DNA of 64,000 nt from Aridibaculum aurantiacum (lineage in GTDB: Bacteria > Bacteroidota > Bacteroidia > Chitinophagales > Chitinophagaceae): positions 248,001 to 312,000 of the forward strand of contig NZ_JAFEWC010000001.1 in assembly GCF_017355875.1 (NCBI RefSeq), read 5' to 3'. The notes beneath the pieces are model-generated. The model saw nothing but the letters and a program-made list of their open reading frames with translations, had not been told where the DNA came from and ran no database searches. Position numbers and translations under genes: made by a program. The first letter of the stretch is position 1, and every line of letters starts with the position of its first letter. This document shows positions 26,374 to 30,319 of the stretch, piece after piece.

Positions 26374-26928
26374 TTAAGGATATACCTGCTGAAGTTTAAA
26401 CGATACATCAAGGTCATCCAGCTTCACATCTTCTTCCGCTTTGGTGAATTTGAAAGTTGTCCACTCACCACCTTCGCTGCGTTTGTACATGGTGAGCAAC
26501 ATGGTCTCAGGTTCTACTATTAGGTAATACTTAAGCGAAGGGATCTTTGTATAGTCGATATATTTATCTACATAATCGTTTACCTGAGTACTTTCTGATA
26601 CTACTTCTACTATCAGCACAGGCTCTTTCTTGATGTATATATTGTCTTCAGTCTTTTCTTCTTTGGTTACAAACACATCAGGATAATAATACTTGTTTTC
26701 ACCGTGGATCTTGACTTTTACATCGTGTGCGTAAACCTGGTAGCCGCGGGACTTTAGGACTTGCATAAAAAGAAAAGCAATTGCAAGGGCAATCTCATTA
26801 TTGATATCTTTTTCTCCCGGCATTTCAAAAAGTTGACCGTTAAGGAATTCATGACGTGTGGCGGCAGATAGTTCATGCCTGATGTACTCGTCCACGCTAA
26901 AAATCCGGTCTGATGTTGCCATTCGCAT
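26374..26928 (-). CDS. Uma2-family PD-(D/E)XK-type protein (DUF820)
   Basis: 184 residues from the ATG at 26928 (the frame is open to 27021 but the extra segment is unlike the family). Family pattern: FSVDEYIRHELSAATRHEFLNGQLFEMPG, then YYPDVFVTKEE (Asp of the PD motif) and EPVLIVEVVSEST (E-x-K-like EVVSEST), followed by YIDYTKIPSLKYYLIVEPET. Uma2 proteins have a restriction-endonuclease-like fold, occur as scattered orphan genes, and have no firmly known role. The start is preceded by a CAC(T/A)AAG-like repeat array, as is the GxxExxY gene nearby. Confidence 0.9.
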   Translation of the reverse strand: MRMATSDRIFSVDEYIRHELSAATRHEFLNGQLFEMPGEKDINNEIALAIAFLFMQVLKSRGYQVYAHDVKVKIHGENKYYYPDVFVTKEEKTEDNIYIKKEPVLIVEVVSESTQVNDYVDKYIDYTKIPSLKYYLIVEPETMLLTMYKRSEGGEWTTFKFTKAEEDVKLDDLDVSFKLQQVYP

Positions 26929-27021
26929 AGCTGCCCCTTTTATCTCAAATATACAAATATTGCTCCTGCGACAGAAAGCTGCAAAAAGCAAAGGCGTAAA
27001 GAAAACGCTAACAAAAATCAA

Positions 27022-29824: not shown

Positions 29825-29837
29825 TTTTATTTTTTTT

Positions 29838-29876
29838 GAACCACAAAGGCACTAAGGGCACTAAGGGTCACAAAGT
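29838..29876 (+). repeat. Left inverted repeat of the GxxExxY cassette
   Basis: Starts GAACCACAAAGGCACTAAG (29838-29856) and continues with two further CAC(T/A)AAG units, ending directly at the GxxExxY stop codon. The first 19 bases match the right-hand copy (inverted) at 17 of 19 positions. It lies 13 bases before the metH ATG. Confidence 0.75.
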
Positions 29877-30266
29877 TTATAGTACTATTCGTTTGATGCC
29901 CTCTTTGATAAGTGGAACATGGAAATTTATTAGGAAGCCTAACCTTTTCTGTGAAAGCTTAAGATAGCTAATCATTTGTGCCTCCCAGACAGGGTGGAAG
30001 TTTTCCTGGGCTTTAAGTTCAATGATAACCAAATCATCTACAAGAATATCTAACCGCAAGCCATCGTCTATTTTTAGGCTATTGTAGATTATAGCCACCT
30101 CTTTTTGTCTTAAGTATGGAATGTCACGATTAGATAACTCATGGCAAAAACACTTTTCGTACACACTTTCAAGCAAGCCAGGCCCAAGAAATTTATGAAT
30201 AGTGTAAGCAACATCTACTATTTGCTTACCTAAACTTTCTTCCCTTACTGATAATGATTGATACAT
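29877..30266 (-). CDS. GxxExxY protein (PD-(D/E)XK_3 family) inside the split metH locus
   Basis: 129 residues, a full-length GxxExxY (TIGR04256/PF13366) protein. The name motif is GPGLLESVYEKCF (G, E and Y of the signature near residues 30-38). The nuclease-like core is GLRLDILVDDLVIIELKA (Asp, then E-x-K near residues 72-87), followed by WEAQMISYLKLSQKRLGFLINF. Catalysis has not been established for the family that I know of. The gene is markedly more AT-rich than the flanking metH halves, and inverted repeats abut both its start and stop, which suggests insertion as a unit. Confidence 0.93.
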   Translation of the reverse strand: MYQSLSVREESLGKQIVDVAYTIHKFLGPGLLESVYEKCFCHELSNRDIPYLRQKEVAIIYNSLKIDDGLRLDILVDDLVIIELKAQENFHPVWEAQMISYLKLSQKRLGFLINFHVPLIKEGIKRIVL

Positions 30267-30267
30267 T

Positions 30268-30305
30268 CTTAGTGCTTCTTTGTGTTCTTGGTGCCTTAGT
30301 GGTTC
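30268..30305 (-). repeat. Right inverted repeat of the GxxExxY cassette
   Basis: On the minus strand it begins GAACCACTAAGGCACCAAG (30305-30287) and runs through CACAAAG and CACTAAG units to within 2 bases of the GxxExxY ATG. It begins 14 bases after the stop of the homocysteine-binding gene. Confidence 0.75.
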
Positions 30306-30319
30306 AATATCTCATCATA

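Follow-up and report, generated by a model that had tools for sequence, protein, structure and literature searches.

Between the two genes that encode the parts of methionine synthase (metH) lies a small gene of the GxxExxY family, enclosed in a pair of imperfect inverted repeats. The window, by which we mean the whole 64-kb stretch of DNA analysed here, belongs to Aridibaculum aurantiacum, and the features of the locus are collected in Table 1. An initial annotation, made from the letters alone, gave the coordinates and sequence of the two 38-nt arms correctly, and its count of 17 agreeing positions in their outer 19 nt was exact. A repeat search lengthens both arms by two bases (to 29836–29875 and 30268–30307), giving 40 nt that are 78% complementary. 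The start and stop codons of the enclosed ORF are directly abutted by the arms, which, as read from the letters, carry an identical series of word spacings, and the cassette has the termini TTGAACC ... GGTTCAA. The distances of 13–14 bases to the metH coding ends, also claimed at the outset, are borne out as 13 nt from the arm to the end of the C-part ORF and 14 nt to the N-part ORF, and the AT-richness of the cassette is seen in a GC content of 0.37 in its two 250-nt blocks against 0.51–0.61 in the four adjoining blocks. The local inverted-repeat score is 35, a value that 5000 shuffles do not approach more closely than 28; amongst the inverted repeats of the window that score at least 34 over a span of no more than 700 bp, the cassette alone exceeds 100 bp. 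Comparison with Rfam gave nothing above a gathering score, the one chance-level match having an E value of 0.74 and 17.3 bits against a required 85. A gene of the Uma2 family, another group of PD-(D/E)XK proteins, lies downstream of metH at 26374–27021.

Table 1. Features of the cassette and of the metH genes on either side of it, in window coordinates.
Feature	Position	Strand	Remarks
Whole cassette: 5' arm, GxxExxY ORF and 3' arm	29838..30305 (468 bp)	minus (gene sense)	
5' arm, gene-sense reading GAACCACTAAGGCACCAAGAACACAAAGAAGCACTAAG	30268..30305	minus	four CACNAAG words, spacings 8, 9, 10
3' arm, inverted, GAACCACAAAGGCACTAAGGGCACTAAGGGTCACAAAG	29838..29875	plus	four words, spacings 8, 9, 10
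GxxExxY ORF, 129 aa	29877..30266	minus	predicted RecB/lambda-exonuclease/Cas4-like PD-(D/E)XK protein
metH C part, 909 aa	27095..29824	minus	downstream neighbour; pterin-binding, B12-binding and activation domains
metH N part, 335 aa	30320..31327	minus	upstream neighbour; homocysteine methyltransferase domain

The product of the enclosed gene is a member of the GxxExxY family by comparison with TIGR04256 (E value 3.4e-39; 133.8 bits, curated cut-off 35) and of PDDEXK_3 by comparison with PF13366 (7.6e-37; 126.7 bits, cut-off 22), the latter being its sole Pfam match. In an alignment of 62 sequences, residues H24, D73, E83, K85, Q97 and N114 are invariant; once the paralogues join, in an alignment of five sequences, H24 becomes variable and D73, E83, K85 and Q97 are still invariant. 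We take the D and ExK (and Q) positions to be the motif of a PD-(D/E)XK nuclease. The AlphaFold2 model is confident (mean pLDDT 93.3, pTM 0.86) and its top Foldseek matches are lambda exonuclease (1avq), LHK-Exo (3syy) and the Cas4 protein SSO0001 (4ic1), with E values of 3e-3 to 2e-2. Hjc is found amongst the neighbours as well, and lambda exonuclease, Cas4 and Hjc span a range from 3e-3 to 0.1. Foldseek gave no match at 0.001 or better, the best being 3.2e-3, and for this reason the evidence supports a class of fold but does not single out a nearest relative. Sequence relatives were found neither in the PDB at an E value of 1 or below nor in PHROGs; the matches to the PADLOC defence profiles, Cas4 (0.0045), PtuA (0.0057) and Cas4b (0.033), are all weak and partial. 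Judged by its modelled fold and its conserved positions, the protein is a predicted member of the PD-(D/E)XK superfamily, from which we infer that it would act as a nuclease. It was considered whether the gene might be phage or plasmid cargo. This was rejected: a single tblastn query found the family in five of 72,556 plasmids and in none of 50,697 phages, in collections that hold few of the usual hosts, and one viral contig carries a relative. The counts fit a chromosomal resident, subject to that thin coverage of hosts.

The same layout surrounds many other GxxExxY genes; the initial annotation had named flanks without any such repeat as the outcome that would count against it, and that outcome was not obtained. 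An inverted-arm score of at least 28, under common scoring, was used as the criterion, and arms taken from different loci and mispaired served as the control. Arms are present around 51 of 79 GxxExxY genes scored in a cross-phylum set, which leans to the query because it was drawn from 560 confirmed places by keeping the best 80, and the mispaired control gave 62 of 632. Amongst close relatives the proportion is 30 of 65 (mispaired 4 of 520), 65 of 71 rows having been scored after duplicates, runs of N and contig ends were dropped. Loci of relatives encoding S23 or four-helix-bundle proteins have arms in 16 cases of 29 (29 of 30 scored; mispaired 4 of 232). By comparison, the Uma2 loci from the same set of genomes have none (0 of 26; 26 of 30 scored, the remainder with cut flanks; mispaired 0 of 208), and random ORFs of 100–170 aa have them in two of 278 cases (mispaired 1 of 2224). 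Under different settings the figures had been 54 of 80 for GxxExxY (the 80 again being the best among 560 places) and, for S23, 15 of 30. The mispaired, Uma2 and random-ORF controls show that each pair of arms is specific to its locus, and that small genes in general do not have them. Loci below the arm score amount to roughly a third to a half (28 of 79 in the best-80-of-560 set, 35 of 65 in relatives). Chance or an artefact of annotation, for which no supporting point was found, has a vanishingly small probability in view of the mispaired-arm, random-ORF and shuffle controls.

Within the arms the words recur with a period, and this period follows the family of the ORF: 8–9 nt for GxxExxY and 7 nt for S23. 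For lags 8 and 9, z is 14.1 and 7.1 in arms of the cross-phylum GxxExxY set and 4.4 and 9.9 in those of relatives; the S23 arms reach 16.0 at lag 7. In the Uma2 flanks no lag exceeds z 1.6. Flanks of random ORFs show an excess at 6, 9 (z 5.5) and 12, as expected of a codon period, and none at 7 or 8 (lag 8, −1.7), so that lag 9 alone is unspecific and lag 8 is specific. Of 278 arms from 139 GxxExxY loci, 90 contain two or more CRCNNNG words in a chain; a first gap of 8 was counted in 64 of these 90, a second gap of 8 or 9 in 66 of 73, and a third gap of 10 in 15 of 18.

A small ORF in the loop of a stem built from short repeats recalls the intervening sequences (IVSs) of 23S rRNA. That of Coxiella, as given in PMC4990558, has 428 nt, a terminal 28-bp stem and an ORF in the loop, is excised by RNase III, and has heptameric repeats before its S23 ORF, which fits the 7-nt period of the S23 arms described above. 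It is conceivable that the cassette is an element of this kind and acts at the level of RNA: pairing of the arms in a polycistronic mRNA would let RNase III excise the ORF. The anatomy is the same, the S23 genes themselves lie in inverted arms, the window arms abut the start and stop codons, and the cassette folds as RNA with z −2.7. Moreover, where both neighbours are on one strand, the gene is co-directional with them in 42 cases and opposed in six (from 68 two-neighbour loci amongst 108 examined), although adjacent genes are co-directional anyway in 33 of 46 baseline pairs. The behaviour of the words in the stem points the other way. In 40 elements with at least two type-A words (CACNNNG) in both arms, 30 of them cassettes and 10 gene-less hairpins, the agreement between words was compared over three letters. 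In the cassettes it is 2.44 for stem partners, 2.36 for non-partners and 1.71 for words of other elements, a result that 118 of 1000 shuffles reach; for the gene-less hairpins the corresponding figures are 2.12, 2.08 and 2.06, with 271 of 1000 shuffles. Covariation by stem partner is absent from both groups, and the words are alike, that is homogenized, inside a cassette; as a proof of RNA function, covariation is unsupported in these 30 cassettes and 10 hairpins. In the genome of the window, the variable N of CACNAAG is complementary to its stem partner in one of 23 cases, against 18 of 68 for non-partners (Fisher 0.035). Nor would RNA processing explain the scattered gene-less hairpins and the matching of dialects described below, and we consider an IVS-like RNA element improbable. 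The conserved letters at a fixed phase, with free positions between them, look like repeated contact sites for a protein. Since covariation is lacking, the words are homogenized and the letters resemble contact sites, a protein that reads arrays of words in DNA is favoured. It should be noted that, in this small sample, the free N almost never pairs with its stem partner, as if mismatches were kept.

In relatives the arms fall into several classes of word: CACNNNG (type A), CGCNNNG, CGGAT, AGGATT, ACAGAT, ACATAG and others. The classes and their regular expressions were set by the analyst, and 45 of 139 loci are without a class. Mantel and tree tests covered 139 of 148 loci, the metH-located L043 and L166 not being tips. 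Similarity of the arms correlates with protein identity (rho 0.27 for 139 loci, with none of 200 permutations as high), and does so inside the cross-phylum set as well (rho 0.23, 79 loci, none of 500 permutations); the correlation partly reflects shared descent. On the GxxExxY tree the word class changes 40 times, compared with a mean of 62 and a minimum of 52 in 500 shuffles.

The distribution of arm words across genomes ties them to the gene in a second way. Amongst 296 genomes of the phylum, at least two type-A arm sites are found in 37, and all 37 carry TIGR04256, which overall is present in 152 (149 over the cut-off); the Fisher value of 1.7e-12 rests on complete per-genome counts, includes the gene's own arms and ignores phylogeny. 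At least one site is found in 64 genomes, 54 of which carry the gene, and the reversed pattern used as a control matched in 14, three of them with the gene. The gene's own arms cannot account for genomes such as G018, with 147 sites and three genes, or G285, with 24 sites and two genes. In the 39 relatives, sites occur in 16 genomes, every one with the gene, and in none of the 11 gene-less genomes. Three GxxExxY genes are present in the genome of the window and, by reading, each has arms of a different type. For the second gene (L002), armed with ACATAG, the dialect ACATAG[AT]G accounts for 17 of 20 own-genome sites, or 10 of 13 once the seven next to the gene are set aside, compared with one of 36 sites in other genomes. 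Just upstream of this gene (L002, 785–1298) there is a 95-bp gene-less hairpin of 5.4 tandem copies, an array made of the gene's own ACATAG word. Outside this genome, ACATAG is weakly enriched (36 sites against 23 in the reversed control, 39 genomes) and occurs also in genomes that have no ACATAG-armed gene.

A strict pairing of gene and dialect is only partly supported. The three GxxExxY genes of G018, by reading, carry other arm types in spite of the 147 CACNNNG sites; G008 and G003 have many CGGAT-word sites (41 and 25, respectively) and no CGGAT-armed gene amongst those found; and two CGGAT sites apiece are present in G011 and G033, which lack a GxxExxY gene. Unmatched hairpins of this sort could reflect gene loss after spread, one enzyme that serves several words, incomplete assemblies or a looser link. 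Alternatively, hairpins might arise or spread by some other route, such as slippage, template switching or the action of a Y1 transposase, the GxxExxY and S23 genes being passengers that inhabit them or cleaners that trim them. This would suit the genomes rich in hairpin words and poor in matching genes, the occupation of one architecture by two unrelated ORF families, the lack of target duplication in the ten elements described below, and a tandem run of heptads after lepA in G012 that resembles slippage. It is harder to reconcile with a word class that follows the GxxExxY tree, a period that follows the ORF family, a presence correlation of 37 out of 37, and a dialect match of 17 of 20 against 1 of 36; we regard it as unlikely, though far from negligible. 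The heptad run in G012 (L326) is of the TTAATAC type, a word like the arms of that genome's S23 gene (L223).

Gene-less hairpins are scattered in the genome of the window. A search with the 19-mer of the arm gave 60 places; 28 have at most one mismatch, many of them as plus/minus pairs, and 32 with two or three mismatches were excluded from the count of arm sites. The reversed control gave 39 places, with mismatch levels not split. Ten elements could be delimited by the ends GA[AG]CCAC and GTGG[CT]TC, namely nine gene-less ones of 61–80 bp and the metH cassette; as these ends were the means of finding them, the nine provide no independent test of the end sequence. Six hairpins, treated as single-stranded DNA, fold better than their shuffles (z −2.1 to −5.2). 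A general scan for hairpins in 20-kb samples is dominated by terminator-like repeats: there are 5.5 per 100 kb in this genome (400 kb) and 12.5, 8.3, 23.8, 2.5 and 2.5 per 100 kb in five GxxExxY-less genomes (380 kb), and such totals fail to separate the one from the others. Periodic hairpins were seen in the samples, by eye, only in this genome, and their words are like those of S23 arms.

There is some evidence that the hairpins have moved. Two of type A follow lepA in the genome of the window, and a reading of the 330 nt behind lepA in nine relatives of the same genus shows none like them; G001 apparently shares the downstream gene without the hairpins, and carries a fragment of a different word type in that place. 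In two loci of G018 (L211 and L212) hairpins are nested, one word type standing within the loop formed by another. Movement is thus suggested, on comparison of sequences, by the scattering of gene-less hairpins, by their absence after lepA in relatives and by nesting; this does not extend to the metH cassette. The target-site duplication raised in the initial annotation was looked for and is not seen: no direct repeat of 3–9 nt flanks the ends of any of the ten own-genome elements. A second repeat, approximately ACAAGTGTGCGACGCAACGATG, recurs in several relatives, both next to hairpins and behind lepA (L005, L010, L016, L021 and several lepA gaps); four 12-mers of it have no match in the 64-kb window.

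The history of the cassette at metH can be followed in ten genomes of the genus, one of which (G002) is split over two contigs. The GxxExxY cassette occupies the metH gap in G000 (the genome of the window), G001, G002, G007 and, frameshifted, G008. G004 retains a relic with both arms, G009 has another ORF and G005 a decayed one, and nothing similar is present in G003 and G006. Elsewhere, a solo arm is left at metH in G013, and in G031 an S23 gene stands in the gap directly behind metH N. Eight metH-located GxxExxY genes fall within one clade of nine leaves (support 0.997), which includes loci labelled Cnuella, Ferruginibacter and Flavobacterium; for the ninth leaf (L067) there is no metH within the fetched DNA. 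Six metH-located genes, compared in 15 pairs, have pS of 0.74–0.95, which is near saturation, and pN/pS of 0.20–0.33. The latter values indicate that the ORF is under purifying selection and, because synonymous sites are near saturation, the pattern of words in the arms has outlived neutral divergence. From these comparisons, the metH cassette is an old and mainly vertical resident that has been lost, decayed or replaced in some relatives. The initial annotation had seen a minimal mobile unit of repeat, ORF and repeat without its own transposase, and had named conservation at this spot in all relatives, with vertical divergence, as the contrary outcome. The unit without a transposase stands, and was not found described elsewhere. 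Relatives do have empty or altered gaps, but mobility at metH is unsupported; vertical descent is found within one clade that spans several genera, though it is interrupted by the losses and replacements just listed.

A host function at metH, for example in mRNA stability or in the regulation of methionine synthase, could in principle keep the cassette in place, and its residence at metH in several genera of one clade, together with purifying selection on the ORF, would accord with this. Close relatives nevertheless have the cassette absent, decayed or replaced by other ORFs, and GxxExxY genes occur at many other loci, which makes such a function very improbable. That the cassette recently broke metH was also considered and rejected. 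Most of the same-family relatives examined have metH as two ORFs, with or without the cassette and, because the split exists without it, its presence is no sign of a recent break in the gene. In three loci (L039 in G002, L037 in G007 and L043 in G008), the terminal sequence of the element, TGAACCAC or TGAGCCAC, itself supplies the stop codon of metH N, and an ancient insertion may therefore have set the split. Other small ORFs that contain palindromes or are preceded by them, for example CCTGAAGTCGCAATTTGTGACTTCAGG and TTTCCGAGACAGTGTCTCGGAAA, stand in the metH gap of G009, G005 and G016 (L041, L044 and L052); these are presumably ORF6N-like and DUF1016-like.

Taken together, we propose a partnership between hairpins and a small RecB/Cas4-like PD-(D/E)XK enzyme that acts on the words of its own clade, in the manner of REPINs and RAYTs, a reading that we hold to be about evenly poised between right and wrong. 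In this scheme, the GxxExxY gene and its flanking arms would form one inherited unit, and the scattered gene-less hairpins would be its non-autonomous relatives in the same genome. The protein would recognize arrays of its clade's word in the inverted arms, and would act on them as DNA rather than RNA, most probably while the palindrome is single-stranded or extruded during replication. Cutting of hairpins at replication could seed new gene-less hairpins, mobilized in trans, and homogenize the words within a genome; RAYTs are thought to act on REPINs in an analogous way, the enzyme here being unrelated. The gene-bearing copy itself would rarely move and would be inherited for the most part vertically, as at metH. 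The S23 genes share the architecture, and such arms may therefore need no nuclease. A wider formulation, which is possible but which we advance with more doubt than conviction, is a superclass of elements in which small ORFs sit in hairpins of word arrays, the ORF family sets the period and each clade spreads its own gene-less dialect; the S23-bearing IVSs of 23S rRNA would be a special case, and GxxExxY a nuclease specific for its own hairpins.

In the open-access literature searched, neither a description of a repeat–ORF–repeat unit around GxxExxY nor a role for the family was found, and the passages of PMC8934634 and PMC12085832 in which GxxExxY is mentioned have a subject other than repeats. 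The gene and its repeats look like an undescribed partnership, with a real chance of being a new class. The arms provide a definable candidate substrate for a widespread family, and its function thereby becomes directly testable. If the proposed partnership is correct, a second, unrelated class of enzyme is partnered with dispersed hairpin repeats, and the degenerate intergenic repeats met here in many environmental genomes are accounted for. The origin of rRNA intervening sequences, which is described as unclear in PMC4990558, would also gain a concrete hypothesis.

Several known systems invite comparison. With MITEs and insertion sequences the elements share terminal inverted repeats and gene-less derivatives; they differ in having no transposase and no target-site duplication that could be found, and in arms that are internally periodic and vary between genomes. 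PD-(D/E)XK homing endonucleases of the I-Bth0305I type have a similarly small fold (a weak Foldseek match, E value 0.33), whereas GxxExxY genes lie in neither intron nor intein, have inverted arms of their own and occupy many locations. Cas4, lambda exonuclease and RecB are the best Foldseek neighbours and share the conserved D, ExK and Q positions, yet the Foldseek E value is no better than 3e-3 and the PDB holds no sequence relative at E values up to 1. The IVSs of 23S rRNA that bear an S23 ORF resemble the cassette in the small ORF within the loop, in terminal inverted repeats of similar length and in the short tandem repeats of the arms. Unlike them, the cassette stands between metH genes and not in rRNA, its ORF is unrelated to S23, its period is 8–9 instead of 7, gene-less copies are scattered and the stem does not covary. 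The REPIN–RAYT system also has gene-less inverted-repeat hairpins dispersed through a genome, and a gene of nuclease type that has their repeat on its flanks. Common to both are, in addition, paralogues within one genome that each have a distinct dialect, vertical inheritance (here at metH), rarity on plasmids with no match in phages in the present searches, and a cluster of hairpins beside one gene, like the REPIN clusters beside RAYTs described in PMC3116915. The differences are that the enclosed gene encodes a predicted PD-(D/E)XK protein (PF13366) rather than a Y1/HUH tyrosine transposase, that the GxxExxY ORF lies inside its hairpin, and that the pairing of gene and hairpin is not strict. 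Finally, the arms of GxxExxY are arrays of words spaced 8-9-10 with GAAC ends, whereas on the RAYT side there are short palindromes tagged with GTAG or CGTC, as set out in PMC3733652.
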